From positions 1-23,572 of IMG/VR virus record IMGVR_UViG_3300023176_001105: a DNA stretch of 23,572 nt; one strand, written 5' to 3'. Positions 1-22,746 of the stretch are shown here, piece by piece. The notes under the pieces were generated by a model. That model was not told the origin of the DNA. It made no database searches and saw only the letters and a program-made list of their open reading frames with translations. The first letter of the stretch is position 1; each line of letters begins with the position of its first letter. The position numbers and the translations under genes were made by a program. Source of the stretch: a virus.

Positions 1-3000
1 ATTAAAGACGAAAATCCACTTGTTGTGGATTTTCTGAGATCTTATTACACGTCTCAAGAATTTGCTGGTGGTCCAGTCGATATTGCTGAGAATATTGATC
101 AGTACCTGAAACTGGATAGTCTGACACCAGATGTGATTGCTGGTATGTCCACAGTGACATCTGGCATTTCCACAACAGATACAGAAATCTTTGTTACTAA
201 TACAAAAGGATTTCCGCAAGAATATGGATTAATCAAGTTAAATAATGAAATTATTACATATACTGGTGTAACAACTAATTCCTTTACAGGATGTGTGCGC
301 GGATTTTCTGGCATTACATCATATCATGCCCCCAATAATCCTGAAGAATTAGTATTTTCCGAATCTGAAGCAGAAACTCACGCAGAGGGAGTATCTGTAC
401 AGAATTTAAGTGCTCTCTTTCTTAAAGAATTTTATAACAAACTCAAAAAACTATACACACCTGGATTAGAAAATACGCAACTTGCTCCTAGTCTAGACGT
501 AAATAACTTTATTAAAGAATCTAGAAGTTTATATGAGAGTAAAGGTACGGAAGAATCTATCAAAATTCTTCTGAAAGTTCTGTATGGTGTAGATTCTAAA
601 GTAATCGATCTTGAACAGTTTCTAGCAAAACCTTCTTATGCGGAATATGTTCGTAGAGAGGTTATTGTTGCTAAACTGATCAGTGGCAATCCCGCTCTTA
701 TTTCTGGCACAACACTATTCCAAGATGCTCAACCACTGAATAAGATTGGGTCTGCTAGTGGACCAATTTCCGAAGTAGAGATTTTTACTAGAGGAACTTC
801 TGAGGATATTGGTGTACAGACATACTATAAGATTTCTCTCTTTACTGGATTTGGTGATGAGAGTCTTATCGAAGGTAAATTTAATATTCCTGGAAGTAGT
901 TTTACTATTGGCAGTCACTCTGCTGGTTCTAATGTAATCACCGTAGATTCGACTATTGGATTCCCAGAGTCTGGATCATTTGTTATTGGTGACGACACTA
1001 TCACATATACATCAAAGACAATTACCCAGTTCATTGGATGTTCTGGTTTAACAGAGGATATTACACCCAGAACAGAGATCACTCAAGATCTTGAAGTATA
1101 TGCTTTTGAAGAAAATGATTTGACCAGACAGGTCAGATTTGTTATCACTGGTGTTTTAAGTAACTTTGAGCAATCTGAGGATATCTTTTCCTCCGTAGAG
1201 GGATCATTAATCTCTGTTAAAAATCTTGGTCAAGTTATTTCTAATGATCAGGAAGATGATTCTTATGCGAAGATCTTCTTCAACTCCTGGATCTACAATA
1301 CTTCTGCAAGATATTTTGTAAGCTCTTTCAGTGGTTCTACTTTCAATCTCTCTTCCACAATTGACAGATCTAGTCTGAAAGAGGGTGATTTCGTTGACAT
1401 TGTAGAAAGATCTAGTCAAACAATTGCCGCATCCAATCTTGAAGTTGTTGGTGTAAACTTAACAAATAATGCAGTAACACTTGGATCTGGTGATTATTCT
1501 GGAGTAAATCCAGCTGGGTTTTATGATATCCGAAAGAGAATCAACAAGGCATCTTCTTTAGGTGCCCCATTATCGTCTGGTGACAATGTTCTTTCTTCTG
1601 ATGTATTAAACACATATGTCGAAGACAATAAATTTGGATATGTTGCTTCCAACTCCTTACCATCCTATGTAATCAGACCAGTAACAACTGAGTCTCAAAT
1701 TTCCGTAGCATCTACATCAAGTGGTTCTATTCAGGGATACGACTCTAATAAGCTTTCATATGATACGATTTCTTTCCAAGACGTTGTTCCATTCTTCAGT
1801 GGAGACGAAGTATTTTACCAACCTTTAGATGGTGCTTCTCCTATTGTTGGATTGAATACGGGAAGTTACTTTGTCGAGGTTCAACCAGCACCCAATAACA
1901 ATAGGATTAAGCTTTCCCTGTCTAGATCATTCTTGGCAGCAGGATCATATGTAAGGTTTAATCCTTCTAATAGTGGTCCTCACTCCTTCATTCTTGCGGA
2001 ACAAAGAGAGGGTTCTATTCAACCACAAAAACTTCTTAAGAAGTTCCCACTCTCTCAAGATATTAGAACTGGTGAGAGAGATTTAACTCAACCTGGAACA
2101 ACAGGTATTCTTATCAATGGTGTTGAAGTAACAAACTATAAGGTTGATGATTCCGTATTCTACGGTCCCCTTGATAGGGTTGAAGTGTTTACTGGTGGAA
2201 CAAACTATGATGCATCTAATGCTCCAAGAGTGATTGTTGGTAATCCATCTATTTCTTCTGGAACAACCGCATTAGTACAACCAGTTGTTGAGGGATCATT
2301 TACTGATATTCTTGTTGATCCAGTAAACTTTGATTTGGAAGAAGTAATTTCCATTAACGTTTCTGGTGGTAATGGTGAAGGTGCTACGGCATCCGCAACC
2401 TTAGCATCTGAATTTAGAGAAGTATTCTTTAATGCGAATACTCTTGCTGAAGGTGGTGGTGTTGATGTTTCTGCTAATACCATTACTTTTGATACTCAGC
2501 ATAACTTCCAAACTGGTGATCCTATTGTTTACAATGCATTAGGTAATGCTGCTCTTGGTATTGCCACAAATACCTCCAATGATGCTATTCAGAACTTAAC
2601 GCTTCAAACAGGAAATATCTACTACTCTAAGTTTATTAACAGTAGTACTATTCAAATCCATAATACAAAACTGGATGCTCAGTTAGGAATTAATACTATT
2701 GGTATTACTACTGAAAATAATGCTGGACTGATGAAGTTCAGAACTACTAATAAGAAGCTAAAGATTGATAGAATTAATGTCCTTAACCCTGGACAAGGAT
2801 ATTCTAATAGAAAACTCATTGTTCAGTCAACAGGTATCAATACAGCAAATGATACCATTGTCTTTGATAATCATAACTTTACTAATGGTGACTTTGTAGA
2901 GTACGAATACTTTGATACTGCTATCTCTGGACTTTCTACAACAGTACAGTACAAGGTATTGACTGTTTCTGATAAAGAGTTTAGACTTGCCAATGCTGGT

Positions 3001-6000
3001 GTTGGTGGAACCAATCATACTGACTTCAATAGAAACAAGTATGTCACTCTTGGATCTGTTGGTGTCGGTAGTCACATCTTCAAGTATCCTGAAATCACCG
3101 TAACTATCAAAGCAGTAACAACTCAGCAAACAGAGGGAACATTTACTGCTACTCCAGTTGTTCGTGGACCAATTGTAGATGCTTATCTCTACAATGAAGG
3201 TACTGACTATGGTTCAGAAATTCTGAACTTCCAAAGAACACCTCAGATTAGTGTCAATAGTGGAAGTGGTGCTGAAGTAAGACCAGTAATCCTCAATGGA
3301 AGGATTGACAATGTATTCGTTCTCAGTGGTGGTACTGGATATACGTCCCCACCAGAACTGGTTGTCAACTCTAATCCTGTTGGAACAGGAACAACTGGAT
3401 CTGGAGCTAGACTGAGAGCACTCATTAACAATGCTGGTGTAGTGACCTCTGTAGTCGTCCTCTCACAGGGTTTAAACTACGATTCGAACACAACCACCAT
3501 TAAGGCTAATTCGGTGGGTTCTGGGGCAATCCTGAACGGTTTCGTGAGACGTTTGGGTGTCAATAAGTTTGCTAAGATTAACGATAATGGTGGAGAGGTC
3601 GTATCTCCAACTCCAGATCGTGGTCTTGAGTATACTGCCATTGGATATGGTGTAACACTTAGAAATGCATTTGGTGATACTGGAGCATTCCACTCACCAA
3701 TCATTGGTTGGGCATATGATGGCAACCCAATCTACGGATCTTATGGTTATAATAATCCAGAAGACATTCAGAGTGGAACTAAGAGAGTTGGATCTGGATA
3801 CACTTCTAGCATTTCTTACATTACCAATAGACCAAACTCAACTACTTTCCCACTTGGATTCTTTGTTGATGACTACAGATTCACTGATGTTGGTGATCTT
3901 GACGAGTTTAATGGAAGATATACTATCACCAATGAATTTCCACAAGGAATTTACGCATACTTTGCCACTATTGATTCTAACAATAATCCACAGTTCCCAT
4001 TCTTTGTTGGAAATTCTTTCAGATCCAAGAGTGTTCCTGAGAACGTAGATCCTGCGGCTTCTATTGATCAGAACTATGACTTTAATAACTCCAATCTGAT
4101 TAGAAATACCTTCCCACAAAAAATTGCTGAAAAGGGTGCTTCATATGACTTTGCTATTGAACCATATAAAGTATTCTCTCAAGATGCTGTAGTTGATGTT
4201 GTTAGATCTGGGTCTGTAGATTCTATCAGTGTTGCTTCTACAGGAAATGCCAGATATGCTGTTGGTGACAACTTAAACTTCGGTGAGACTGAGGTTGGAA
4301 CTGGTCTTGCAGCTCAAGTATCTAAAATCGGTGGGAGATCCATTGTTAGTGTTTCTTCCACAGAGACTGTTTATGAAAATGCTATTGTTACCTGGAAAGA
4401 TGATAAAACAGTAGAGTTTTCTATTAGTCCAAACTTTGATCTGAATGATAAAGACGTTGTTCAAGTTACTGGTTTATCTACTTTTGTCCAAAATCTCGAT
4501 GGTTCTCATACCATTAATACAGATCTCCCTAATGGCAGACTTTTAGTTGGAATGGGAACCACTGGTGTTAGTGGAATGACCACAGACATTTCTGTTTCTA
4601 CAGTTCCCGTTTCCATTGGAAGTTCCCTGAAAGTTTCTAATGAAACATTTGGTGTTCTGAATGTTTTCTCTGCAGATGGTATCATCAGAGTTCAGAGATT
4701 CCCATCAGAAACCGCTAGTGGTGGTGTGGCACATACAGCAACGGAAACCGTTTCTTATCTGCCACAACGGTTCACTGTTTCCTTAGAAACACCTTACTTC
4801 GATTCTAAGGAAGAGGATACTGTATACTTCAATCCATTCGAATCTGTTGGTATTGGAATTACTGCTGGTCTTTCTACCACAAGATCCTATCAGTTTAATG
4901 GTATTACGACACAGAGAGGTATCCTTGCCCAGAACATCTTCCTTGAAGATCACCCATTTGTAACCAACCAACAAATCTCTTACTCTGTTGGTCTCGGAAC
5001 GACTTCTATTGGCATTTCTACAAGTCCAACGGGAACTGTATTCTACATGCCAAGTCAGGTCTATGCTATTAGAACCTCTAAGGATACTATTGGGATTGCA
5101 ACTGTTCTTAATGGAGATCAAGTTTATTTCAGAGATGTTTCATACACTAATTTGTATGATTATCAGTTTGCCTCTATCAATAGTCAGATAACTGCTAATG
5201 TTAAGAAGATAACCGCAACAGTTTCCACTGGTGAAACTCATGGACTTACTAATGGAAATACTATTGAGTTGATGGTCAATCCTGGTTTGAGCACTGGTGT
5301 TGGAGCTGCTTCTACAGTAGTAGTTAAGGTTGCAGAAGAAAGAATTCTTATTAATCCAGTTGCTATTAGTTCCACTGGCATTAACACGAGTACTAATACT
5401 ATCACTAAGACCGATCACGAATATTCAACTGGTGATAAAGTCTATTATGATGCAAGTGAAGTCATTGGTGGACTGTCAACTGGAACGTTCTATGTCTTTA
5501 CGATTGATAAAGACAATTTTAGACTAACTGAAACCAGAAAAGATGCTATTTCTTCACCACCAACTTTTGTAAACTTAACCTCTGTTGGTGGAACTTCCCA
5601 AACACTTTCTTTGGTTAATCCACCACTTGAAGTGTTTAAAAATAATGATATAGTCTTTAATCTTGAAGACTCCAGTCTTTCTGGATACAACTTTAGTGTT
5701 TACTATGATAATGATTTTAATAATGCGGTCGTATCCACTGGACAAACAACTAATTTCTTAATTACACCATTTGGAACTAATGGAACAACTGGTGCTGGAG
5801 TAACAGTTGGATTCTCTTCAATCTTCCCATCTATTCTTTATTACAATTTACATAAGGGTGGATTTATCAGTACTGCTGATAGAGATGTATCTGGATATAA
5901 CGAAATCAGATATTCTAATAGCAAATACAATGGAACATACAATGTATCTGGAGTAACAAGCACCACTTTTGATGTTAATCTTTCTGATGTTGCTGAAAAG

Positions 6001-9000
6001 TCTTCTTATTCTGCTTCTGAGTGCGATTCTATAAAGTACAAAACGACATCGACAAGTGCTACTGGATCTATTGAAGATGTTAGAATAATCTTTAATGGTA
6101 TTGGATATAAGTCTGTTCCAAATATTTCTAGTATTACTTCTACGTATGGATCTGATGCTGTACTGAGACTGAATTCCAACTCTATTGGTAAGTTGGAATC
6201 TGTAAGACTTTTGACTCCTGGATTCTCCTATCCATCAGATAAAACTCTTACACCTACAGCAAAAGTTCCAAATGAACTTTCTGTTAAGAACTATGAAACT
6301 CTAGATTCTATTACAGTGACAGGTGGTGGCAAAAATTATTTGACACCCCCAAGCTTGGTTCTTTATGACCCATCTTCTGATAGCATCGTTTCTGATTTCC
6401 AAGGTTCTACAGAACTTTCTGGAAATGCTGTAAGTCCAACTACGTTAGTTAACGGTGTAGAGACAGCTGGAATCAGAATTGATAGAAATCCAGTTGGTCT
6501 TAAAGAAGATGTTGTGTATCGTGCCGTAGCAGTAAACAATGATAACGGTGTTTCTGTTGTCAGTGTTGCCTCTAGTACCGATAACATTGTCACTTTGAGT
6601 GTTACTACACCTATTCTTGGATTCAGTACAGCACCATTTAAGGTTGGGGATGAAGTTTTCGTTGAGGGAATAGGTCTTGCATCTACAACTGGTGATGGAC
6701 ATAATTCGTCTGATTATGGATATAAGTTCTTTACTGTAACTGCTTACAATAGCAGTGTTAATCCTAATCAGTTGACATATGACCTTAGCAGTTTAGTTAC
6801 TACTAACACAGGCATTGCCATTACAAACCCAGGTCTTTTTGCTAACGTTATTAAGAAAGAGAATCTTCCTGAGTTCGTAGTAAACAAGAAGACATCTGTA
6901 TTTGAACCAGGTGAATCACTTTATCTCAATGATTCTCTAGTTCCTGGATCTACAAATCTTGTTGTAAGTAGCTTTAACTCTTTAACTGGTAAACTTAATA
7001 TTACGGGAACAACACCTATTAAGAATGGTGATACCCTGACGGGATCTGTTACTGGATCTAAGTGTACTATTCAAAACATCACTACTAAAATTGGTAGGTT
7101 TGAGATTGATTCGACTTCTACCTTTGTTAAGGGATGGAGTAATGACATTGGAAAACTTGATGAAGATTATCAAGTAACGGGTGACAATGATTATTATCAG
7201 AGAATGTCTTACTCTATCCAGAGTGAGAAATCCTTTGATGACATTATCAGCTATGTTAATGACAATGTTCACCCAACTGGATATCGCAACTTTGCCGATA
7301 CCCAAATCAACCCCAAGGGAAATGTTGGTGCTTCCTTCACGACTGCACAGGAACAACCATTCCTAGTTCTTGATATTTTTGATGGATCTAAGAGAGTCGA
7401 TACCATTAATGATTTCGACTTTGCTTTGGACTTGGATGCAACCACAAATACATCTAAGTCTATTGAACTCCAAAATGTTCAAGTAACTGATTATATTCTT
7501 AATAAGACCAACAGAGTTGTTTCGATTGATGATATTAGTGGTGAATTTCTTAATGAGGATTCTGACGAACTTCTTACCTTTAAGGACGTTTCTTCTTTTG
7601 GTGACGCAAGAAAAACTAACAAGTTCTTAGTACAACTTGTAGACATTACAAATGATGCTGAAATGGGTCTTAAAGAACTCGTTTTGGTTAATAACAATGA
7701 AGACACCTTTGTATTTGAAAAAGTTGGTCTTGGTGAAACAATTGGTGAACTTGATGGATTCTTTGATGCTGATACTAACAGATATTCTTTAAGATTCTCT
7801 CCAAATGAGATTTACAATACTGACTATGAAGTAAAACTTCTTCAGACCTTCTTTGATGATGATACCGCTGGAATCGGATCTCAAAGCATTGGATTTGTTG
7901 ATCTGATTTCTAAAACTCAAGATGTAAGTGCTGGTGTTGGTACAACTGTTCTTGGATTTAGCACTTCTGTTACTGACACCTTCTACACTAGTGTGGAAGT
8001 GTTTGATGAACTTAGCAATGCAGTAGACTACACTGAACTGGTTATTACTCATAACGGTGTTGATACCTATTTGACTGAGTTGGCAGCATTTAATACCAGA
8101 GTTGGTCTTAATGGACTTTCTGGACCATTCATTGGATCATTTACTGCTTCTATTGAATCTGGTGTAGTAAGTCTTGTTTACAATAATAATGGATCTAATG
8201 ATGTAAGACTGAGAACTCAAACCATTGGAATAGGAACAACTGCTGCTGGTATTGGCACTTACAGATTTAAATTTACTGGAACTTCTGATGGAACAGAAAG
8301 AACTGGTAGATTAGAATCTGATTATGAGATTGTAACTGGCGGAACACCAACAGTAATCACTGGCATTAACAGTGTTACCGATGGGTCTTTGAAATCTACT
8401 GTAAGGGTAAGTATTGGTGAAACTCAATCTGTCCATCAAGTATATGTTCTGAACGATCAAAAAGATAGAGAGAATTTATATGTTCTCAGTTATCCATATC
8501 TTTCTGTAAATGATGTTAATGGTATTGGAACATTCTCCGCAGAATACTCATCTAATGGTGTTGATCTGAAGTTCCATCCCGATTACAGTGGTGATATTCA
8601 GGTTCAGACTTTTAATGAAATCATTTATAGGGATCTTGATAACAATGGTGATATCAATGGAATTGGTGATCTTTCTTATGGAGATGTAAACCAAAATGTC
8701 TCTCAAGCAGTTTATTATGGAATCAATCAAAGAGAGATTCTTGAATTTTCTGCTCAGCATGGTGATGTTGATATTTTTGCTAAGACATTTGACCCAGCAG
8801 GATCTGGTATTCTTAGCACCACGACTGGTAGATTCACATTAGAGCACTTTTTCCAAACTGGTGAAGAACTTGAGTACAGACCAGAGTCTAATTTGATTGG
8901 TGTCGGTGCTACCGCTCTTGTTTATGATACTGGAATTGGAACGGCACGTCTTCCTCAGACGGTTTATGCCATCAGAGACAATGCCACTCAATTTAGAGTT

Positions 9001-12000
9001 GCTACTGCTGCCACTCTTGCCACTGCTGGAACTGCGGTTACATTCACCGCACTTGGTTCTGGTAACAAGCACGTCTTCTCCATGGCAAAGAGGAACGAAA
9101 AGACAATCATTACTTTAGATGGTATTGTACAGTCACCAATCTTAAAGACTCCTTTATCAGAGCAGACAATGCATTCTGTAGGAGCAGGAACCACTATTAT
9201 TCAACTTTCTGGAATTTCTTCTATAAGACCTGCGGATCTGGTTAAAGTTGATAATGAATACATGAAGGTTTCTATTGTTGGACTTGGCTCTACAAATACT
9301 GCTGGTGTAGGTGCTATTGGAACTCTACCAATTATTGAAGTTGAACGTGGATTCGTTGGATCTAGTGCAACGTCCCATAGTCAATTTGCAGATATTTCTG
9401 TTTATAGAGGATCTTACAACATCGTCGATAGTAAAATTTACTTTACTGAGGCACCCAAGGGTGCTGGTAGAGAGGATCTTGACAGTAGAGGTCTGACGAT
9501 TCCAAGATCGAACTTCTCTGGAAGAGTTTATCTGAGAAAGGATTATGACACCAGCATTCTGTTTGATGATGTATCTGATCAATTTGATGGTGTAACTTCT
9601 GAGTTTACACTCAACTCTAATGGCAATAGTGTAACGGGTATTGGATCCACTGGTGGTAATGGTGTTGTCTTTATTAATGGTATTTTCCAAGCACCATCTA
9701 CACCAAACAATACTGATAATAATTTCACCATTACTGAAGTCAGTGGAATCAGCAGTATTGTATTCACTGGTATTCTTTCTGAGGGTGGTTCTCAAATTAT
9801 TGATGTTGATGATATCAACCAAAATCAACTTCCTAGAGGTGGAGTTCCCATTTCCTTCGGATCTACTAATGGGTTGGGATATGCACCTTTGAGAAAAGCA
9901 TTTGCTGTACCTACAGTTACTCTTGGACAAATTACAAATATTGCTGGAGTACCAACGACTGGAGTCTTTGATGCCATTTCTAATGCTGAATATGATAATG
10001 CAACTGGTATTCTGACAGTAACTTCTTCTAGTCCTCATGAACTGAACACTGGTGATAAGATTGAACTGAAAAATATGACGTTCTCTTGTCCTGCTAATGG
10101 TCCATTTGCTAACAACTATCAGTTCCCATCTGAGCAAGGTGTAAACTTTACCATCAGTTCTTTTGTTTATGATAATAGAACAGGTCTTGCCACGGTTGGT
10201 TTGACATCTGCTCATAACTTTAGAATTGGTAGATTGGTTGATCTTTCTAATATTGGAATGGCTTGTTCCACTCCACATACTGGAATCACTAACTCCATCT
10301 TCCCAGATGGAAGTTCTAAAGGTAAAGCTGTTGGTGTTAATACCAATAGATATCCAATCCTTGGTATTGCTGGAACCAATACTTTCTTAATTAACGTTGG
10401 TGTTTCCACCATTGTCCACGTCTATGCTGGTGCTGGTGCTACAGCAGGAAATGCATATGAAGTAAAACCAGCTGGTCCTTATTATGCTACTAGAATCCTC
10501 TCTAACACTAAGTTCGAAACTCAAGTCGGTGTTGTAACATTTGCCCACACATACAGTTCTGGTGGAACTTTTGCAAAGTGGACAAATGCTGATTTTGGTA
10601 GTGGATATTCCACAATCACTGCTCCTGCCATTGCTGTCACAGAATCTGGTCACACTGGAACACTTGCTGAAATTACGGCAAGTGTAGGTGCTGGCGGAAC
10701 ACTGGCATTCACCATTACGAATGCTGGAAGTGGATACACAAATCCAACAATCAACATTCAAGAACCAAGTTACGATAACCTCGTTGTTGAGGGTGTTTCT
10801 AGACTTGCTACTGGGGCAACAACAGCAACTGGTATTGGTATGTCTATTACCGTAGGTGTTCTTGGAATTAATACCAGTTACAACTCTCAACCAATCGTAG
10901 ATTTTGTCTATGATGAAATCACTGGGTTATCCACTGTTAGTGTTGTTGGACATGGACATACCACGGGTGATATTATCAAGATCAATAATGTTGAGTTTGA
11001 ACCATATGCTCCAGTTGGTGGTGGTGGAGCATTCTTCCCTGGACCATCTGTTACTTACAACTACACAGTTCTTCAGTATATTGATGATGATACATTTACA
11101 ATTAACATTGGTGCTGCAACCACCGCTGTTTCTTATACCTATGTTGGTGCTGGTGGTGTTGTAAGAACTGGTATTGGTGCTACCTTGTTTGAAGTTCAAG
11201 AGTTTTCTGTCACTAAACCAGGTTACTCCTTCAGAAGAGGTGACGTTGTAAGAGTTGTTGGTATGACTACCGACCCTCTTGCTGGTGATGATTTCAAAGA
11301 GTTTGAAATCACAATTGATAATACTTTTGAAGATACTTTTGCAGCATGGCAGTTTGGAGAACTTGATTATATCGATAGTGTCAAACCATTCCAAGATGGA
11401 AGCAGAACAAGATTCCCACTGGCATATAATGATCAACTGATTAGTTTTGAAGTTGACAAAAATGATCCAGATTCTGCTCTGATTGACTTAGAATCCCTCC
11501 TGTTGGTCTTTATCAATGGGGTAATTCAAGAACCAGGTGTGGCATATGAGTTTGTAGGTGGCACTTCTGTTTCCTTTGCAGAACCACCCGCTCCAGAAGA
11601 TAGAATTTCTATTTTCTTCTATAGAGGAACTGGTGGAACTGATAGTTTCCTGAAAAATATCACCGAAACTATTAAGGTTGGTGATGACATCTTCATGAAG
11701 AGAACACCTTTGATTGAAAAGAATGATGCACTTCGCACTTTCTCCAACCTTTCCCAAGAATACAATCGTGCTATTATCGGCATTACGTCTTCTAGTGAAG
11801 TTGAAACCTCTCTTTATCGTGGAGATGGTGTTAGCACCACAGAACCAAAACCAATTGCTTGGACTAAGCAAAAGGTAGACCGAATTCTTGGTGGTGAGTT
11901 TATTTCCAAAGCAAGAGATTCTATCGAGGCACAGATTTATCCAACCGCAAAAATCCTTAAGGATATTACAACTTCTGACACAGAAATATTTGTTGAGGAT

Positions 12001-13494
12001 ACATCACTCTTCTTAGGTGTCAATCCAGTAAGTGATCCAGACACTAACTTTGGTGGATTGATTGTTTCTGGATTCTCTACCTCTGGCATCGGATCTACAA
12101 CCACAGTCCCAACTGAGAGAATCAGTGGAATTCTAGATACAAACGTTCAGGGTTATTCTGGTGTTGTTACTGGGATTACAACAGCATATGCAAGACTGGA
12201 AGAGTTCTATCCTTTCGATGTTTCTAAGTTAAACTACAAGAAAGGTCAAAATCTTGTAGATGGTACTAAGAATGATCTTCAGGGAATTTTCTTAAGACCT
12301 GATGGAACAAAACTGTATGTTGCTGATCAAAATACCCTAACAATTACAGAGTGGACTCTTTCCACTCCATATGAGATTGATTCGGCAACAATCAATGCCA
12401 GCAATCAACTTGGTATTAGCACACAGGTTCAAAACATCTATGATCTCTTCATCCGTGATGACGGCACTAAACTTTATACTCTTGGTCGTGGTGCTCAAGC
12501 ACCATTCGTTACCCAACTCAATGAGTTTAGCCTTTCCGTTGCATGGGATTTGACTAGTGATACCGCAGCTGGTATTGAGACAGCAACAACAATTGCTAAC
12601 CAGACTCAAACTCATAGAGGTTTGGAAGTTGTTGACACTGGAACTAAAGTTATTACTATTTCCCCAACCGACTCTGCACTTTATAGTTACACTCTCTCTT
12701 CTGCTTATGATATTACAAGCATTTCTTATGCTTCTAGTTCTGGAACATTGACAGATGATGCTGCTCCATCTGACTTTGCTATGAGCACTGACGGTGAGAA
12801 GATGCTTGTTCTCGGTGGTGATGCTGAAAAGATTCTTGAATACAATCTCACCACTGGATTTGATGTTACCACAATTGGTATTGGATCAACATCCAACTTG
12901 AGTGTTGGTGCAGGTGCAACAATTTCCTTGACAATCAAGGAAGATGGTGAAAGAGCATATGTTCTTAATTCTTCTGGCATCGGTTCTCAATATCACATGA
13001 GTCTCCCACCAGATGGTCTCGGACTTACTTTCCAGTTAGATCTGAGAGATGTACCAACCCTTGCGGAAAGGCAGCAACTTCTTGCAGGGTATCGTGTTCT
13101 TATTCTTGACACTGGAGTTGGAACTGGTCTTACAACAATTATCGGATCTGGTGTTTCTGTTGGAATCGGAACAACAAATGTAATCGGAGTTTCTACTGAT
13201 AAACTTGACAACATCTATGAAACTTACTACACCCAGTATTCTGGAACAGTAGGAATTATTACATGTCAAGTTGATCCAGCAACTAATATTACTGGGATTG
13301 CCGTTACGGGAACCTATCTTGAACCTGTTGGTAAAGTTGTATGGGGTAGGATTTTTAATGTTACTAGAGACACGACTGATCCTATTTCGGTTTCTGTTGA
13401 TGGTAATGAATTCGAAGTTGGATTAACAACATATCCAACTATTCAAAGAAGAGATGCTGGTCTTAGATCTACTGGTGCTCTGAGCAAACAGTAA
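1..13494 (+). CDS. Giant modular virion/baseplate structural protein in the T4 gene 7 position (5' partial)
   Basis: At least 4,497 codons without a stop, ending at TAA 13492-13494. The first ATG/GTG-type start in frame is GTG at 25, but the frame is open from nt 1 (IKDENPLVVDFLRS), so the true start lies upstream. The N-terminal ~210 codons hold a helical stretch (FLKEFYNKLKKLY, then ESRSLYESKGTEESIKILLK) of the kind seen in phage tail and baseplate proteins. A small beta module (TDTEIFV...NEIITYTG) is inserted near nt 150-320. Most of the rest is short beta-rich modules: G-x-G-Y-x-x-P-P segments, 'F-x-T/N-G-D-x-V-x-Y' segments, a YHYH domain (nt 3600-4035), two 'VFINGxxQxP' modules (near 9560-9780 and 11370-11640) and a propeller-like region (12289-12990). 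I see no signal peptide, membrane segment or protease motif. Being directly upstream of gp8 matches T4 gene 7 (baseplate wedge, about 1,030 aa), but I cannot show homology to gp7. Role in the virion is well supported; exact location (wedge, baseplate periphery or fibre) is inferred. Confidence 0.88.
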   Translation: MKDENPLVVDFLRSYYTSQEFAGGPVDIAENIDQYLKLDSLTPDVIAGMSTVTSGISTTDTEIFVTNTKGFPQEYGLIKLNNEIITYTGVTTNSFTGCVRGFSGITSYHAPNNPEELVFSESEAETHAEGVSVQNLSALFLKEFYNKLKKLYTPGLENTQLAPSLDVNNFIKESRSLYESKGTEESIKILLKVLYGVDSKVIDLEQFLAKPSYAEYVRREVIVAKLISGNPALISGTTLFQDAQPLNKIGSASGPISEVEIFTRGTSEDIGVQTYYKISLFTGFGDESLIEGKFNIPGSSFTIGSHSAGSNVITVDSTIGFPESGSFVIGDDTITYTSKTITQFIGCSGLTEDITPRTEITQDLEVYAFEENDLTRQVRFVITGVLSNFEQSEDIFSSVEGSLISVKNLGQVISNDQEDDSYAKIFFNSWIYNTSARYFVSSFSGSTFNLSSTIDRSSLKEGDFVDIVERSSQTIAASNLEVVGVNLTNNAVTLGSGDYSGVNPAGFYDIRKRINKASSLGAPLSSGDNVLSSDVLNTYVEDNKFGYVASNSLPSYVIRPVTTESQISVASTSSGSIQGYDSNKLSYDTISFQDVVPFFSGDEVFYQPLDGASPIVGLNTGSYFVEVQPAPNNNRIKLSLSRSFLAAGSYVRFNPSNSGPHSFILAEQREGSIQPQKLLKKFPLSQDIRTGERDLTQPGTTGILINGVEVTNYKVDDSVFYGPLDRVEVFTGGTNYDASNAPRVIVGNPSISSGTTALVQPVVEGSFTDILVDPVNFDLEEVISINVSGGNGEGATASATLASEFREVFFNANTLAEGGGVDVSANTITFDTQHNFQTGDPIVYNALGNAALGIATNTSNDAIQNLTLQTGNIYYSKFINSSTIQIHNTKLDAQLGINTIGITTENNAGLMKFRTTNKKLKIDRINVLNPGQGYSNRKLIVQSTGINTANDTIVFDNHNFTNGDFVEYEYFDTAISGLSTTVQYKVLTVSDKEFRLANAGVGGTNHTDFNRNKYVTLGSVGVGSHIFKYPEITVTIKAVTTQQTEGTFTATPVVRGPIVDAYLYNEGTDYGSEILNFQRTPQISVNSGSGAEVRPVILNGRIDNVFVLSGGTGYTSPPELVVNSNPVGTGTTGSGARLRALINNAGVVTSVVVLSQGLNYDSNTTTIKANSVGSGAILNGFVRRLGVNKFAKINDNGGEVVSPTPDRGLEYTAIGYGVTLRNAFGDTGAFHSPIIGWAYDGNPIYGSYGYNNPEDIQSGTKRVGSGYTSSISYITNRPNSTTFPLGFFVDDYRFTDVGDLDEFNGRYTITNEFPQGIYAYFATIDSNNNPQFPFFVGNSFRSKSVPENVDPAASIDQNYDFNNSNLIRNTFPQKIAEKGASYDFAIEPYKVFSQDAVVDVVRSGSVDSISVASTGNARYAVGDNLNFGETEVGTGLAAQVSKIGGRSIVSVSSTETVYENAIVTWKDDKTVEFSISPNFDLNDKDVVQVTGLSTFVQNLDGSHTINTDLPNGRLLVGMGTTGVSGMTTDISVSTVPVSIGSSLKVSNETFGVLNVFSADGIIRVQRFPSETASGGVAHTATETVSYLPQRFTVSLETPYFDSKEEDTVYFNPFESVGIGITAGLSTTRSYQFNGITTQRGILAQNIFLEDHPFVTNQQISYSVGLGTTSIGISTSPTGTVFYMPSQVYAIRTSKDTIGIATVLNGDQVYFRDVSYTNLYDYQFASINSQITANVKKITATVSTGETHGLTNGNTIELMVNPGLSTGVGAASTVVVKVAEERILINPVAISSTGINTSTNTITKTDHEYSTGDKVYYDASEVIGGLSTGTFYVFTIDKDNFRLTETRKDAISSPPTFVNLTSVGGTSQTLSLVNPPLEVFKNNDIVFNLEDSSLSGYNFSVYYDNDFNNAVVSTGQTTNFLITPFGTNGTTGAGVTVGFSSIFPSILYYNLHKGGFISTADRDVSGYNEIRYSNSKYNGTYNVSGVTSTTFDVNLSDVAEKSSYSASECDSIKYKTTSTSATGSIEDVRIIFNGIGYKSVPNISSITSTYGSDAVLRLNSNSIGKLESVRLLTPGFSYPSDKTLTPTAKVPNELSVKNYETLDSITVTGGGKNYLTPPSLVLYDPSSDSIVSDFQGSTELSGNAVSPTTLVNGVETAGIRIDRNPVGLKEDVVYRAVAVNNDNGVSVVSVASSTDNIVTLSVTTPILGFSTAPFKVGDEVFVEGIGLASTTGDGHNSSDYGYKFFTVTAYNSSVNPNQLTYDLSSLVTTNTGIAITNPGLFANVIKKENLPEFVVNKKTSVFEPGESLYLNDSLVPGSTNLVVSSFNSLTGKLNITGTTPIKNGDTLTGSVTGSKCTIQNITTKIGRFEIDSTSTFVKGWSNDIGKLDEDYQVTGDNDYYQRMSYSIQSEKSFDDIISYVNDNVHPTGYRNFADTQINPKGNVGASFTTAQEQPFLVLDIFDGSKRVDTINDFDFALDLDATTNTSKSIELQNVQVTDYILNKTNRVVSIDDISGEFLNEDSDELLTFKDVSSFGDARKTNKFLVQLVDITNDAEMGLKELVLVNNNEDTFVFEKVGLGETIGELDGFFDADTNRYSLRFSPNEIYNTDYEVKLLQTFFDDDTAGIGSQSIGFVDLISKTQDVSAGVGTTVLGFSTSVTDTFYTSVEVFDELSNAVDYTELVITHNGVDTYLTELAAFNTRVGLNGLSGPFIGSFTASIESGVVSLVYNNNGSNDVRLRTQTIGIGTTAAGIGTYRFKFTGTSDGTERTGRLESDYEIVTGGTPTVITGINSVTDGSLKSTVRVSIGETQSVHQVYVLNDQKDRENLYVLSYPYLSVNDVNGIGTFSAEYSSNGVDLKFHPDYSGDIQVQTFNEIIYRDLDNNGDINGIGDLSYGDVNQNVSQAVYYGINQREILEFSAQHGDVDIFAKTFDPAGSGILSTTTGRFTLEHFFQTGEELEYRPESNLIGVGATALVYDTGIGTARLPQTVYAIRDNATQFRVATAATLATAGTAVTFTALGSGNKHVFSMAKRNEKTIITLDGIVQSPILKTPLSEQTMHSVGAGTTIIQLSGISSIRPADLVKVDNEYMKVSIVGLGSTNTAGVGAIGTLPIIEVERGFVGSSATSHSQFADISVYRGSYNIVDSKIYFTEAPKGAGREDLDSRGLTIPRSNFSGRVYLRKDYDTSILFDDVSDQFDGVTSEFTLNSNGNSVTGIGSTGGNGVVFINGIFQAPSTPNNTDNNFTITEVSGISSIVFTGILSEGGSQIIDVDDINQNQLPRGGVPISFGSTNGLGYAPLRKAFAVPTVTLGQITNIAGVPTTGVFDAISNAEYDNATGILTVTSSSPHELNTGDKIELKNMTFSCPANGPFANNYQFPSEQGVNFTISSFVYDNRTGLATVGLTSAHNFRIGRLVDLSNIGMACSTPHTGITNSIFPDGSSKGKAVGVNTNRYPILGIAGTNTFLINVGVSTIVHVYAGAGATAGNAYEVKPAGPYYATRILSNTKFETQVGVVTFAHTYSSGGTFAKWTNADFGSGYSTITAPAIAVTESGHTGTLAEITASVGAGGTLAFTITNAGSGYTNPTINIQEPSYDNLVVEGVSRLATGATTATGIGMSITVGVLGINTSYNSQPIVDFVYDEITGLSTVSVVGHGHTTGDIIKINNVEFEPYAPVGGGGAFFPGPSVTYNYTVLQYIDDDTFTINIGAATTAVSYTYVGAGGVVRTGIGATLFEVQEFSVTKPGYSFRRGDVVRVVGMTTDPLAGDDFKEFEITIDNTFEDTFAAWQFGELDYIDSVKPFQDGSRTRFPLAYNDQLISFEVDKNDPDSALIDLESLLLVFINGVIQEPGVAYEFVGGTSVSFAEPPAPEDRISIFFYRGTGGTDSFLKNITETIKVGDDIFMKRTPLIEKNDALRTFSNLSQEYNRAIIGITSSSEVETSLYRGDGVSTTEPKPIAWTKQKVDRILGGEFISKARDSIEAQIYPTAKILKDITTSDTEIFVEDTSLFLGVNPVSDPDTNFGGLIVSGFSTSGIGSTTTVPTERISGILDTNVQGYSGVVTGITTAYARLEEFYPFDVSKLNYKKGQNLVDGTKNDLQGIFLRPDGTKLYVADQNTLTITEWTLSTPYEIDSATINASNQLGISTQVQNIYDLFIRDDGTKLYTLGRGAQAPFVTQLNEFSLSVAWDLTSDTAAGIETATTIANQTQTHRGLEVVDTGTKVITISPTDSALYSYTLSSAYDITSISYASSSGTLTDDAAPSDFAMSTDGEKMLVLGGDAEKILEYNLTTGFDVTTIGIGSTSNLSVGAGATISLTIKEDGERAYVLNSSGIGSQYHMSLPPDGLGLTFQLDLRDVPTLAERQQLLAGYRVLILDTGVGTGLTTIIGSGVSVGIGTTNVIGVSTDKLDNIYETYYTQYSGTVGIITCQVDPATNITGIAVTGTYLEPVGKVVWGRIFNVTRDTTDPISVSVDGNEFEVGLTTYPTIQRRDAGLRSTGALSKQ
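148..327 (+). other. Protein module: 'TDTEIFV...NEIITYTG...GCVRG' beta module, copy 1
   Basis: About 60 residues with the pattern T-x-I-x-V-x-(8-12)-G-x-I/V-x-I/L-x-N/D-E-x-I-x-Y-x-G-(6-8)-G-C-x-R-G. It interrupts the helical N-terminal region of the giant protein. Related copies lie at about 901-1060, 9170-9385 and, more degenerate, 11950-12050 in the same gene. Another sits at about 20930-21150 in the DUF4815 gene. The pattern resembles small beta units seen repeatedly in marine phage structural proteins; function is unknown. Confidence 0.6.
3193..3520 (+). repeat. Cluster of G-x-G-Y-x-x-P-P protein modules
   Basis: Three consecutive modules are built on a Gly-x-Gly/Asn/Asp-Tyr turn: NEGTDYGSEI (near 3196), SGGTGYTSPPELVV (3325) and SQGLNYDSNTTTI (3463). 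Each is followed by G-S/V-G-A and a strand ending in V-x-x-V. Further copies occur in this gene near 2191, 2788, 6091, 6214, 6319, 10594 and 10720. Two are in gp8 (14221, 14344) and two in the DUF4815 gene (20450, 20576). This is protein-level repetition; the DNA copies are diverged. Confidence 0.65.
3600..4035 (+). other. Embedded YHYH-type domain in the giant protein
   Basis: The motif HSPIIGWAYDGNPIYGSYGY (His codon at 3691) is followed by DEFNGRY (3901-3921), then FPQGIYAYFATID (3937-3975) and a final PFFVG (3997-4011). This is the ordered set of landmarks I associate with the YHYH family (PF14240): a 'DG-PIYG' core, a 'D-E-x-N-G-R' turn and a 'GTYAYF' strand. The Tyr-His-Tyr-His tetrad that names the family is not visible upstream of the core, so this is a phage-type variant. 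Such domains are commonly annotated in cyanophage structural proteins. Boundaries are approximate. Confidence 0.75.
12289..12990 (+). other. Five-repeat beta-propeller-like segment in the giant protein
   Basis: Five in-frame repeats share the pattern 'xDGTKxYVL...xxEYxLSTxxD(I/L/V)'. They are PDGTKLYVADQN (Asp codon 12301), DDGTKLYTLGRG (12457), DTGTKVITIS (12634), TDGEKMLVLGG (12787) and EDGERAYVLN (12940). The DG-type turns are 53, 59, 50 and 51 codons apart. The first four are followed by an aromatic-rich strand such as EWTLSTPYEID or EYNLTTGFDVT. Regular spacing of about 50 residues with a D-G turn is typical of propeller blades. Five visible blades could form a five-bladed propeller, or a sixth or seventh diverged blade may lie at the edges. 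In phage tails such propellers can be receptor- or glycan-facing, but that is inference here. Confidence 0.7.
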
Positions 13495-13528: not shown

Positions 13529-13549
13529 TAATAATGTCTGCTATTATTA
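13529..13549 (+). other. Small AT-only inverted repeat around the gp8 start codon
   Basis: TAATAAT (13529-13535) and ATTATTA (13543-13549) are perfect 7-bp arms with a 7-nt loop. The first two bases of the ATG (13534-13536) lie in the 5' arm and its G begins the loop. With only A-U pairs the hairpin would be weak. It may modestly occlude the start or may be chance in AT-rich sequence. No clear Shine-Dalgarno sequence precedes this start. Confidence 0.3.
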
Positions 13550-15117
13550 CAGATCAATTTAGGATTTTGAATGCCGAAAACTTTGTGGCTTCTGTCGCAA
13601 ATACGGCAAATTCTTACTATGCCTTTATGAGTTTATCCAATCCTACAGGATCTGGATATGGTAGAACCTCAACTTGGAATGATGTCGGTGGTCCACCCTT
13701 CCCCACCGATAACTTTAACTACTCCAATCATGTTTATGACACTATGCTTTTTGGCAAACGTGTCACATCTGCTAATACAAGAAGATTAGTTAGAAAAGTA
13801 AATTGGGTTCAGGGTTCTACCTACGACTTTTATAGACACGATTACAGTGCTACAAATCAAACTCAGGTTACAAATTCTAGCAGACTGTATGATTCCAACT
13901 ATTATGTTGTAAACAGTGATTTCCGTGTTTATATTTGCTTAGACAACGGAACTGCTGCTGGAATCTCCACAACACCTTCTGCATCACTGGACGAACCATC
14001 GTTCACTGATGTTGAACCTAGTAGAGCAGGAACCAGTGGTGATGGATATCTTTGGAAATATCTCTATACTATTAATCCTAGTGACATCATTAAGTTTGAC
14101 TCTACAGAATATGTAACTGTACCTAATGACTGGTTAACCACTACCAACACAGGAATCCAAGCTGTTAGGGATAACGCAGACTCTGAAGTTAACAATAATC
14201 AAATTAAAATTGTTGCTATTGATGAACCTGGTCTTGGATATCCACAGTTCACTGCCAAAGAGTTTCCAATCTTAGGTGATGGTCAAGGTGGAAAAGTTAG
14301 AGTTACGACAAACTCTCTTGGACAAATCATCGAGACTCAGGTAACTTCTGGTGGGTCTGGATATTCCTTCGGACGTGTTGACCTTTCAAGTGAAAACACT
14401 GGTGTTCAGACAGCAACATCTGCTTTTGCTAAACTGACACCAATCATTCCACCCTCAAAAGGTCATGGGTATAATGTTTACAAAGAACTTGGTGCTGACA
14501 AAGTTCTGATGTATGCAAGATTTGATAACTCTTCCTATGACTTTGCTGACGACACGGTATTTGCTCAGGTTGGAATTGTAAAAAATCCCACTATTCTGAA
14601 CTCTGATACTGTTTTCACCGATAATCAGTATTCCTCTTTATATGCGGTCAAGTATGAAACTCAGAGTGCTGCACAAGATTTGGTAGTTGGTGATTCTATT
14701 CAACAAACAGTTGGTGTAGGTTCTACTGCCAAAGGCATTGTTGCTTCTTATGACACCGAAACTAAGATCATTAAATATTATCAAGACAGAAGTCTCTACT
14801 ACAATGCTGCAACAGGTGATGAGACTGATGCAACTGATGTAAGATCTAGGTCTCCAATCATTAACTTTACCTCCAGTTCTAATCCAATTACAAAAACTGG
14901 TGGTTCTTTCAGTGTTAATGTTGACCAAAACTTTAGTGGAGTCACTACCACTCTTGCCAACGGAAGAGTAGTTAACCTGGGTGTTAACTTTACAGATGGT
15001 CTTGCAAATCCAGAAATAAATAAGAGGAAAGGGGAAATCATCTACCTTGACAATAGACCTTCTGTAACCAGAAATGAAAGACAGAAGGAAGACGTTAAAA
15101 TCGTATTAGAGTTCTAA
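13534..15117 (+). CDS. gp8: Baseplate wedge protein, T4 gp8 homologue (enlarged)
   Basis: A 527-residue homologue of T4 gp8, a dimeric component of the baseplate wedge that in T4 binds gp7 and gp10. Landmarks shared with T4 gp8 run in order: PPFPTD (residues 54-59; T4 PPYPTD), a downstream basic-W pair (RKVNW; T4 RRDW), GDGYLWKYLYTI (169-180; T4 GDGYVWEYLFEI), EYVTVP (T4 EYIVVP), and the C-terminal block RKGEIIYLDNRP (498-509; T4 SGEMIYMENRP) ending in a beta strand (VKIVLEF; T4 INILFTF). T4 gp8 is about 334 aa. The surplus lies between the EYVTVP and C-terminal blocks and includes two GxGY modules (EPGLGYPQF at about 231 and SGGSGYSFG at about 272) and a GVGSTAKGIVASYD module (about 394). 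The ATG at 13534 follows a late promoter; two tandem stops (TAATAA) end the gene. Confidence 0.92.
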   Translation: MSAIITDQFRILNAENFVASVANTANSYYAFMSLSNPTGSGYGRTSTWNDVGGPPFPTDNFNYSNHVYDTMLFGKRVTSANTRRLVRKVNWVQGSTYDFYRHDYSATNQTQVTNSSRLYDSNYYVVNSDFRVYICLDNGTAAGISTTPSASLDEPSFTDVEPSRAGTSGDGYLWKYLYTINPSDIIKFDSTEYVTVPNDWLTTTNTGIQAVRDNADSEVNNNQIKIVAIDEPGLGYPQFTAKEFPILGDGQGGKVRVTTNSLGQIIETQVTSGGSGYSFGRVDLSSENTGVQTATSAFAKLTPIIPPSKGHGYNVYKELGADKVLMYARFDNSSYDFADDTVFAQVGIVKNPTILNSDTVFTDNQYSSLYAVKYETQSAAQDLVVGDSIQQTVGVGSTAKGIVASYDTETKIIKYYQDRSLYYNAATGDETDATDVRSRSPIINFTSSSNPITKTGGSFSVNVDQNFSGVTTTLANGRVVNLGVNFTDGLANPEINKRKGEIIYLDNRPSVTRNERQKEDVKIVLEF

Positions 15118-15121
15118 TAAA

Positions 15122-18100
15122 ATGCCACAACAGACTAATCTCAACGTCAATCCTTACTATGATGATTTTGATCCAGCTAAGGATTATTATCGTGTGCTAT
15201 TTAAGCCTGGATTCCCTATCCAAGCTAGAGAACTAACAACCCTACAGTCGATTTTACAAAACCAAATCGAAAGTTTTGGTAGCCATATCTTCAAAGAAGG
15301 TTCTATTGTCGTCCCTGGCAATGTAACTTATGATGATCAATATTATGCTGTAGAAATCAATTCTACACACTTGGGGACAGATGTTAGTGTGTATATTGAT
15401 AACTTTGTAGGGAAGAGGATTGTCGGTCAAGAGTCTGGTGTAAGTGCTCAGGTACAGTATGTTCTCCCTCAGACTGGATCTGAAAGAAATAACGTAACTC
15501 TATACATCAAATACATTGATTCTGGAAATACTAATAATGCTCTCTCTTCCTTCTCTGATGGTGAAAATCTAGAGACTCTAGAAGCAGTAGATTATGGAAA
15601 TACGACTATTCCTACAGGTAATACATTTGCTACCTGTATTTCCGAAAATGCAACCTCTATCGGATCTGCCGCACACATTGGTGCTGGCATTATGTTCCTT
15701 AGGGGAGCATTTGTCAGAGTAGAAAAACAAACTATCCTTTTGGATCAATACTCTAACCAACCATCCTATAGAGTTGGTTTAGTAATCTCCGAAACTATTA
15801 CTACAGCAAAGGATGATTCTTCTCTTTATGATAATGCAAAAGGGTTCTCTAATTATACAGCACCAGGTGCCGATAGATTAAAGATTCAACTGGTTCTTGG
15901 TAAAAAAGCACTAACTGACACTACAGATGTCAACTTTGTTGAACTGCTTAGAGTTGAAAATGGTTCGATTAGAAAAATTATCAAATCCACGGAATACAGC
16001 ATTATCCGTGACTACTTAGCAAAGAGAACTTTTGATGAGTCTGGAGATTATTCTGTAGAAGATTTTGAACTGGATCTATTCAATTCCCTAAATGATAGGC
16101 TTGGGAATGATGGATTGTACTTCTCTAACCAGTCAACATCTCAAGGAAATACCCCAAATGACAACCTTGCATGTCTCAAGGTCGGTCCTGGTGTTGCATA
16201 TGTTAAGGGATATGATGTAGAGAAGAATGGTACTGAAATTATTGATGTAAACAAAACAAGAGCAACTAAGGAAGTAAAGTCTTCTGCTGTTGACTTTGAG
16301 ATGGGCAATCTCATTAAGTTGAATCATGTTGTCGGTATTCCCAAGTTTAAAGATGCCGTTCAACTTTACGATCAAAGAAGAAATAATACTGGTGCTGGTA
16401 TTGGCACTCAAATTGGTGAAGCACGAGTATATACTTTAAAACCAGAATCTCAAGTTAGTATTGCTTTAACTGATACAACAATCTACGATTGTTATCTTTA
16501 TGATATTCAAACTTATACCAGACTGGAACTAAACTCTTCCCTGAGTGCTGGTGATCTTCCAGATACTGCATACATTAAAGGTCTCAGCAGTGGTGCAACT
16601 GGATATGCCACTACAGTTGGATCTGGAAAGTCTGAAGTATTCCTGAGACAAACTGCAGGATCTTTTATTCAAGGTGAGTCTATTAGCATCAATGGCATCT
16701 CTACGACTCCTAGAACCGTCAATAACGTCAAGCAATACGGTGCTGGGGATGTCAGGATGGTATGGCAAGACAGCAGCTCTCTGTCTGGATATACCACTGA
16801 TTTCCAAGGTGACACCGTTTTAGACTTTGTTGTTCCAACTGGATTTAGTGTTGCCGATACGATTACTATCAACAATGCTGGTGTTACTACCTCTGCTGGA
16901 AATAACTTTACTAATTTCAAAGTCGGTGATGTTATTCAATATCAGAGACCTGGGTTTTCCACAGCAACTTACAACAGAGTAAGTTCTATTACAGCAGATG
17001 GTCTTAAAATGACTTTATCTGCCGTTGTTAACGTCAAGGGAGTCTGTGATGGTTCTCTTCCAAGTTCTACAACAACCGTTCAGTTTAGAAGAGGTAGATC
17101 TTCAATCAGAAATGAAGAGCAGGGATTCCTTTATGCTCCTCTGGATGATGGAAACATTGCTACAGTAGATTTTACTGGATCTGATCTTAAAGCAGTTGTA
17201 GAAGCAACTGGGAAAACTACCAATTCTAGTGGTGTTCTCACACTGTCTGCTTCTGATATTGGTGGACTTACTGATATTCTATTCGAAGCCTTTGACGAAG
17301 AAAGATATTCTATTATCTACAGTGATGGAAAAATTGAACCACTTCGTGATGATCAAGTAACCATTTCTTCCAATGTAGTCACTTTCAATGGTCTGAGAGC
17401 AAGTCAGTCTAACGTTAATGTCATTGCCACTGTTAGAAAGATATCTGTTCAAAACAAACAGAAAGTCTACAATAGAGTTAGGACTCTTGAGGTAACTAGA
17501 TCCAAGTACAGTAATTCTGGCACTAATGGCAATAGCAGCATCAATGATGGTCTGACTAAGAGCCCATATTATGGTTTGAGAGTTCAAGATAAAGAGATCT
17601 GCCTCAACTATCCAGATGTTGCTAATATTTTTGCTGTCTATCAAGCAATTGATGAAAATTCAGTAACACTTGACACTCTGAACTTCTTCACAAATCCCGA
17701 CATTAATGATAGTGTTATTCTTGGTGAAAATGTAGTCGGTAGCACATCTGGTGCTGTTGCTAAAGTAGTAACAAAAGCAGCAAATCAGATCACATTTGTT
17801 TATCTGAATGAAAATAGATTTTCTATTCAAGAAAATGTTTTGTTCCAAGAATCTAATGTTATTGGACAAATCCAGACCATTAGTGCTGGAAGATATACTG
17901 ATGTAACAAACAGATTCACTCTGAATAAAGGTCAGAAGAGTCAGTACTATGATTATGCTCGTTTAGTAAGAAACGACGGATATTCTGAACCAAACAGAAA
18001 ACTGTATGTTGTCTATGATCACTATACGGTTCCTTCTAATGACGAGGGTGATATTTTCACCGTAGACAGTTATGATGAAGAAAGGTTTGCCAAGGATATT

Positions 18101-22165: not shown

Positions 22166-22377
22166 TAAAGGTAGAGGGATATCAAAACCTCTATCGTGAT
22201 CCTAATACTGGTGCGATAGTAAATACAGATAGACGGGCATACTTAGAGTATGTCCGTCAAAGAAACTTATTGGTTAAACAAAAACAAGAAAAAAGAAGTT
22301 TGGAAGAAGAAGTATCCAATCTTCACGATGAAGTTGATGAATTGAAGAAATTAGTTCACGACTTATTAGGTAGATAA
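22162..22377 (+). CDS. Small coiled-coil phage protein (71 aa)
   Basis: A 71-residue protein opening with MIKVEGYQNLYRDPNTGAIV, a pattern I recognise from small conserved proteins of T4-like marine phages, followed by a tyrosine/arginine-rich stretch. From about residue 38 there is a highly charged helix with hydrophobic heptads (SLEEEVSNLHDEVDELKKLV), which should form a dimeric or trimeric coiled coil. Its ATG overlaps the stop of the DUF4815 gene (ATGA), indicating translational coupling and one late transcript with gp8. Its stop codon lies inside the next late-promoter box. Function is unknown. Given its place it may be a minor baseplate protein, an assembly factor or a chaperone for the large neighbour. 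The overlap and coding pattern make it real with good confidence. Confidence 0.82.
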   Translation: MIKVEGYQNLYRDPNTGAIVNTDRRAYLEYVRQRNLLVKQKQEKRSLEEEVSNLHDEVDELKKLVHDLLGR

Positions 22378-22404: not shown

Positions 22405-22746
22405 ATGGCTGCCGTATACGTATCTAATTTAAGTATTAATGTTGGTGTGAATTTTAGTCAATCTTTCACGCTGGCAGATACCGCATCTGACGCACCTATT
22501 AACTTAGCTGGTTATGGACATAGTGCTTTTTTGAGAAAGCATTATACCGCTACTACTAGCACACCATTTTTAACCACCATTGATGACCCAGCAAGCGGAT
22601 CTATCTCTGTTTCTATGGGTTCAAGTTTGACTTCGACATTAAAACCTGGAAGATATGTTTATGATGTAGTTATTGTAGATGGAAGTGGGACAAAAACTAG
22701 AGCGGTTGAAGGTTCAGTTATCGTCCGAGGAGGAGTAACTAGGTAA
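22405..22746 (+). CDS. BppU-N-like small virion protein (113 aa)
   Basis: A 113-residue, all-beta protein. The order of motifs is a start strand (VNFSQSFTL), INLAGYGHSAFLRKHYTA, a D-x-A-S-G-S-I-S-V-S turn and strand, LKPGRYVYDVVIVDGSGTKT, and a closing EGSVIVRGGVTR. This matches the immunoglobulin-like N-terminal domain of BppU-type baseplate or receptor-binding proteins found widely in phages ('tGyt...iRk...GrYvYDv...dg.g...rvleG...v...vTr'). Here it is a stand-alone domain, so it may cap or anchor a fibre. It is the first gene after the GATAAATA promoter, with no obvious Shine-Dalgarno sequence. Its TAA stop overlaps the next ATG by one base (TAATG). Function in this phage is inferred. Confidence 0.8.
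   Translation: MAAVYVSNLSINVGVNFSQSFTLADTASDAPINLAGYGHSAFLRKHYTATTSTPFLTTIDDPASGSISVSMGSSLTSTLKPGRYVYDVVIVDGSGTKTRAVEGSVIVRGGVTR
22727..22735 (+). promoter_or_regulatory. Strong Shine-Dalgarno for the 70-aa gene
   Basis: GAGGAGGAG ends 10 nt before the ATG at 22746. It is the clearest ribosome-binding sequence in the window and fixes that start. It lies within the coding end of the preceding gene and contrasts with the weak or absent sites of gp8, DUF4815 and the 113-aa gene. Confidence 0.75.

Follow-up and report, generated by a model that had tools for sequence, protein, structure and literature searches.

The giant frame and its neighbours

Directly ahead of a gp8 gene, in the slot of T4 gene 7, the DNA analysed here (the window, a whole IMG/VR contig of 23,572 bases) holds a single frame of 13.5 kb. 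The question is whether this frame encodes the T4 baseplate wedge protein gp7, expanded by module accretion, or a different giant structural protein that has replaced it, the two alternatives put forward in a first-pass annotation made from the letters alone. Gp7 was counted among the non-cyanophage core genes in a 2010 comparison of 26 T4-like genomes (PMC3037559), and according to a 2020 mSystems study, cyano- and pelagimyophages lack T4 gp7, for which VrlC appears to substitute (PMC7029224).

The frame (1..13494, plus strand) runs for 4,497 codons with no internal stop, for which the probability by chance is approximately 10^-134 at the 38% GC of the window, and its 5' end is open at the contig edge; both the uninterrupted frame with an open left edge and the clear gp8 behind it, as described at first reading, are confirmed (Table 1). 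A complete copy of the gene, encoding 4,522 aa from the start MINTNSVFDSRVKIQQVVDNQLPEF, is present on contig IMGVR_UViG_3300018421_000345, with nucleotide identity of 99.9% over 11.5 kb and 98.8% across the last 2.2 kb. Thus, the window protein is short by just 25 residues; the motif LPEF sits just upstream of the window's left edge. T4 gp7, which had been put at about a quarter of the length, has 1,032 aa, and the complete giant is 4.4 times longer. The gp8 homologue of the window, a gp6 homologue upstream of the giant gene on a near-identical contig (L006) and the gene order of complete relatives place the giant between gp6 and gp8.

Downstream of gp8, the protein encoded at 15122-22165 contains the PF16075 domain (VrlC/DUF4815), which is not found in the giant protein. 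The closest solved relative of this VrlC protein is PDB 9euf, 'DUF4815 domain-containing protein, ORF65' (1.8e-46, residues 1506-1706), and it has a TKGFP-type module in common with the giant. A 71-aa frame (22162-22377) that overlaps the end of the VrlC gene has a C-terminal half resembling a short coiled coil by eye, and similarly sized genes stand behind VrlC in P-HM2 and S-PM2 (T4-GC 112). Next come a 113-aa protein (22405-22746) with a match to PHROG 3304, 'L-shaped tail fiber protein assembly' (1.4e-32), then a 70-aa frame, and lastly a fibre-like gene that runs off the right edge.

The giant protein is already listed in databases for marine cyanobacterial viruses, and in the Kyanoviridae the same giant, in most cases already named gp7, is encoded behind gp6. 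PHROG 2885 ('baseplate wedge subunit') matches window residues 1-3661 nearly collinearly with its positions 24-3643 of 4179 (E=0), and relatives of the first 500 residues occur in 462 phage records, all but five of which are named Synechococcus, Prochlorococcus or cyanophage; identity to the nearest named phages over these residues is 47%. The order gp25-gp6-giant-gp8-VrlC is found in P-SSM2 (5,195 aa, named gp7), P-HM2 (4,454 aa, named gp7), Sf-CH5 (4,878 aa) and S-SRM01 (3,895 aa). S-PM2 (3,048 aa) and S-H9-2 (3,224 aa) have the same order but with one small gene before gp8, and in Syn9 (6,076 aa) and ACG-2014a (6,064 aa) two genes stand behind the giant, which occupies the slot after gp6: a gp9/gp10-like connector gene and one other. 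A search of phage records with two conserved segments leads to other T4-like phages with much shorter proteins, encoded directly behind gp6 in Stenotrophomonas phage IME-SM1 (503 aa), Melnitz-2 (896 aa) and Sinorhizobium phage phiM7 (1,006 aa); the short protein of Pelagibacter phage HTVC008M (gp055) has 1,016 aa. Proteins in the slot behind gp6 thus range over 503, 896, 1006, 1016, 3048, 3224, 4454, 4878, 5195 and 6076 aa, all with both core elements described below. S-SKS1 (L003:17923-30315) is omitted from this series: its public record shows the gene interrupted over several frames, by sequencing error or genuine decay, and annotates no CDS in the 5' half.

Relationship to T4 gp7

Two short elements of the T4 gp7 core are recognized in the window protein. 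The first (N-core) comprises helices with the family motif KGTEESxKFLFxxLY (T4 gp7 724-758), and the second (C-core), an HPxG helix element (T4 866-897), lies downstream of it and is strong in the bridging phages. By profile-profile comparison, the N-core matches T4 gp7 724-758 with an E-value of 3.5e-10 and the C-core matches T4 gp7 866-897 with 3.6e-5, in the T4 order, and neither matches T4 gp6, gp8, gp9 or gp10. Searched with a profile of the marine N-terminal region, the T4 gp7 family is hit at T4 727-758 (3.5e-6), and gp6 is not. As a control, all T4-type sequences were excluded from the core models and reversed proteins were used as decoys. For the N-core model built in this way, the E-value is 1.1e-7 with T4 gp7, 1.5 with the highest-ranking protein other than gp7 and 11 with the top reversed decoy; the C-core model finds the T4-like gp7s at 0.01-0.16, all at one position, the next best protein at 0.8 and the best reversed decoy at 6.3. 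The T4 match of the C-core is weak by single-profile search, and its assignment relies on the bridging phages and the profile-profile comparison: direct profile comparison of window residues 2331-2560 with T4 gp7 gives an E-value of just 0.07, and a tight C-core profile that includes the bridging phages is needed to reach T4 gp7.

The short gp7 profile, searched against 177,635 PDB sequences, matches only T4-family gp7, in three collinear segments (2.3e-7); the profile of the window-family N-terminus matches only gp7 among PDB sequences (1.9e-4); and T4 gp7 as the query matches cyanophage PHROG 2885 (1.3e-4) and PHROG 26741 (1.7e-5). AlphaFold2 gave models of poor quality (mean pLDDT 57 and 62). 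In a Foldseek search with the low-confidence model of the 503-aa IME-SM1 protein, the top three of 350,542 PDB chains are T4-family gp7 (1e-4), and the window-family N-terminal model finds nothing meaningful in the PDB. Xylanase look-alikes found by phmmer with the first 500 residues against the PDB (E ~6e-4) are spread over beta regions and were dropped as being of low specificity.

The giant gene is very probably an orthologue of T4 gene 7 with a split and expanded core. Expansion by module accretion is favored by the core matches, the repeated modules and the cassette differences described below, and an unrelated replacement giant is not supported, the first ~230 residues matching T4 gp7. 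The first-pass annotation proposed that both ends be compared with gp7 and gp6. The N-terminus indeed belongs to gp7 and not gp6, but its counterpart in T4 gp7 is the C-terminal third (~645-760), not the N-terminus, and the last ~140 residues match none of T4 gp6, gp7, gp8, gp9 and gp10. A separate gp7 homologue elsewhere, which had been named as evidence against the expansion, was not found in the nine complete relatives searched, the window being only part of a genome: with the window-family profile, P-SSM2, P-HM2, Sf-CH5, S-PM2, S-H9-2, Syn9, Melnitz-2, phiM7 and IME-SM1 each have a single core-bearing gene, and what else this profile finds in Syn9 and S-H9-2 is weaker and consists of single modules.

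That the slot holds an unrelated giant structural protein, with true gp7 lost and VrlC in its place, would agree with the published statement (PMC7029224) and with the failure of an ordinary single-sequence PDB search with the N-terminus to find gp7; however, this explanation is very improbable when profile searches match T4 gp7 and no other PDB protein. VrlC is encoded behind gp8, beside the core-bearing gene, in phiM7, IME-SM1 and HTVC008M as well as in the window, and it was rejected as a substitute for gp7 because both gp7 cores are absent from it, in HTVC008M as in the window. The HTVC008M protein I899_gp055 (L206:33435-36485), labelled 'head closure Hc2', has both cores (2.4e-27 and 4.9e-19) and is, by sequence, gp7. 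Together, these results contradict the loss of gp7 and its replacement by VrlC. PHROGs 3465 and 460 ('head closure Hc2') and 4406, 701 and 19630 ('head and packaging') also match gp7 proteins, so one gp7 family is spread over several conflicting labels. Conversely, P-HM2 PHM2_094 and S-SSM7_103, annotated 'gp7', HTVC008M gp059 and gp062 ('baseplate wedge initiator') and Syn9 gp103 were rejected as gp7 because they lack both cores; proteins with the name 'gp7' or 'baseplate wedge initiator' and without both cores lie at L085:28838-36109, L206:44145-46025 and 46673-49735, and L211:29634-38639. The name may have spread to such proteins through shared beta modules.

A split core with added modules

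In the window protein, the T4 gp7 wedge core is split in two, and ~4,000 residues of beta modules have been added within and after it (Table 1). T4 gp7 (PDB 5IV5, 5HX2) likewise has the N-core before the C-core and a place between gp6 and gp8, but its core is nearly continuous and is preceded by ~640 residues, whereas the window protein has three insertions. No counterpart of these N-terminal residues was found in the window protein; they are treated as a non-defining addition of the T4 lineage because the short gp7s, in which the core starts at the N-terminus, lack them too. The short gp7s of IME-SM1, Melnitz-2, phiM7 and HTVC008M (gp055) share the slot and match both cores strongly, but differ in the insertion between the cores (~240-780 versus ~2,150 residues) and in the tail (~15-220 versus ~2,060). 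The spacing from N-core to C-core is 89 residues in phage SRB7757, ~100 in T4, ~240 in IME-SM1, 370 in Melnitz-2, 780 in phiM7, 1,560 in S-PM2, 2,150 in the window and 2,330 in P-HM2, and the residues behind the C-core number ~60 in IME-SM1, 140 in T4, 2,058 in the window and ~2,670 in P-SSM2. The description of the protein at first reading as N-terminal helices followed by a beta chain agrees, for the first ~480 residues, with the predicted secondary structure of a near-identical protein, but it missed the second core element (aa 2378-2439) and the beta insertion of ~90 residues within the helical region, which is absent from IME-SM1 gp7 and at whose site Syn9 and ACG-2014a are ~500 residues longer.

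Table 1. Positions of the giant gene, its parts and the genes behind it in the 23,572-base window.
Feature	Position	Strand	Residues and remarks
Probable gp7 orthologue, baseplate wedge protein	1..13494	+	4,497 of 4,522 residues; phrog_2885 baseplate wedge subunit, E=0
N-terminal helical segment	1..135	+	IKDENPLVVDFLRSYY...; counterpart of T4 gp7 ~645-681
First beta insertion	166..315	+	aa 56-105; TKGFP-type module within helical core
N-core	415..687	+	aa 139-229, with LYESKGTEESIKILLKVLYG; matches T4 gp7 724-758
Internal insertion between core halves	688..7131	+	~2,150 residues; repeated HxTGD and GGxGY beta modules
YHYH domain (PF14240)	3691..3981	+	aa 1231-1327; 7.3e-24
C-core	7132..7317	+	aa 2378-2439, includes YYQRMSYSIQSEKSFDDIISYVNDNVHPTGYRNF; matches T4 gp7 866-897
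C-terminal extension	7318..13491	+	~2,060 residues (2,058 behind C-core); beta modules
S-SSM7 gene split point	9282..9321	+	aa 3094-3107
Beta-propeller-like cassette	12271..13035	+	aa 4091-4345; five repeats; confined to window's clade
Conserved terminal anchor	13078..13491	+	aa 4360-4497; common to P-SSM2, Sf-CH5, S-SRM01; no T4 wedge protein match
gp8 homologue, baseplate wedge	13534..15117	+	Pfam Phage-Gp8 1.3e-11; phrog_438 1e-150
VrlC protein (DUF4815)	15122..22165	+	2,347 aa; without gp7 core

The insert and tail contain seven copies of the HxTGD-type module, eight of the GGxGY type and two of the TKGFP type, which were detected by segment-wise phmmer but not reported by self-BLAST of the whole chain. 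These modules are also present in other giants, and the GGxGY type in the short gp7s of IME-SM1 and phiM7. The YHYH domain is the only Pfam match above the cut-off in the giant protein. The giant gp7s of the Kyanoviridae (phrog_2885; P-SSM2 YP_214343, S-SRM01, Sf-CH5) resemble the window protein in slot, length class and possession of both cores, their modules are collinear with it over most of the chain, and the last ~140 residues are conserved; the window protein differs from these named giants in its clade-specific propeller cassette (aa 4091-4345). The five repeats of the cassette resemble surface-layer protein 1l0q (8.6e-7), a known beta-propeller. Across relatives, the cassette site, between the C-terminal anchors at aa 3761-4030 and 4360-4497, holds 54, 137-141, 328-331 or 610 residues, and among the relatives compared a propeller is found there only in the window's clade. 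The relative with 610 residues, against the usual 54-331, is L243.

S-SSM7 encodes the chain as two genes, one matching window residues 307-3094 and the other 3107-4007, so the portion beyond aa ~3100 can also exist as a protein of its own. This arrangement and the great length of the chain of repeated modules would suit a polyprotein that is cleaved to leave the wedge gp7 as one fragment and the rest as separate baseplate or fibre proteins, but such processing is improbable in that the core needs residues on either side of the 2,150-residue insertion, and cleavage inside it must leave the halves associated. Accretion onto gp7 is visible in the repeated modules of the insert and tail, the size-variable cassette site and the S-SSM7 split.

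Proposed assembly and significance

The two short core elements, one formed by the N-terminal helices that bear the KGTEESxK motif and the other by the HPxG helix, would be the conserved wedge scaffold; by analogy with T4 and XM1, they would join two gp6 chains in a (gp6)2-gp7 core bundle, of which six surround the tail hub. In XM1, gp17 (242 aa), reported as the T4 gp7 orthologue, completes a (gp16)2-gp17 core bundle with its N-terminal helices and binds tail spikes with residues 80-106 and 201-242 (PMC10457771); the analogy with the giant is functional and drawn from this description, XM1 gp17 being ~19 times shorter. In the cyanophage lineage, beta modules have very probably accreted at three sites: in the helical core (~90 aa), between the cores (~2,150) and behind the second core (~2,060). 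The chain is predicted to run out from the wedge core in a long loop, come back to supply the HPxG element and then depart a second time.

The two arms formed in this way would build the host-facing periphery of the baseplate and carry or anchor receptor-binding parts, for which the T4 equivalents are gp9-gp12; on balance, such a role is slightly more likely than not. It is made plausible by a review according to which the genes recognized in cyanomyoviruses do not include 10, 11 and 12 (PMC2984593). A 1,937-aa product of S-CREM2, encoded between two other wedge proteins, is present in the virion with 91 unique peptides (PMC10665884) and occupies the same slot as the giant. The arms would presumably contact the receptor, follow the six-fold geometry of the baseplate and remain uncleaved. 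The further proposal that both arms are the cyanomyovirus baseplate's own receptor-reading periphery, replacing T4 gp9-gp12, with host recognition retuned by cassette exchange at fixed sites, is tentative and rather unlikely. Somewhat less probable than the host-facing role, though a serious contender, is a gp7 with mainly structural arms that build a broad or double-layered baseplate and clamp gp8 and VrlC, leaving receptor binding to the downstream fibres; fibre-like genes do follow VrlC and most of the modules are generic beta repeats, but the YHYH domain and the swapped cassettes indirectly suggest exposed, varying parts.

The locus belongs to a known family, and what is useful here is the finding that the core is split and that a published statement needs correcting. 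The gene is familiar, but a disputed point is settled in that marine T4-like phages, on the evidence of the cores, have a gp7 that is disguised by core-splitting insertions. This removes an apparent gap in the marine T4-like baseplate, in which VrlC coexists with gp7 instead of replacing it, and brings out the conflicting names ('head closure Hc2', 'head and packaging', 'putative fiber') under which databases list one family. For the structure of a cyanophage baseplate, the prediction is that window residues 1-230 and 2378-2440 would meet in the wedge, from which gp7 chains of ~480 kDa would radiate with six-fold symmetry.
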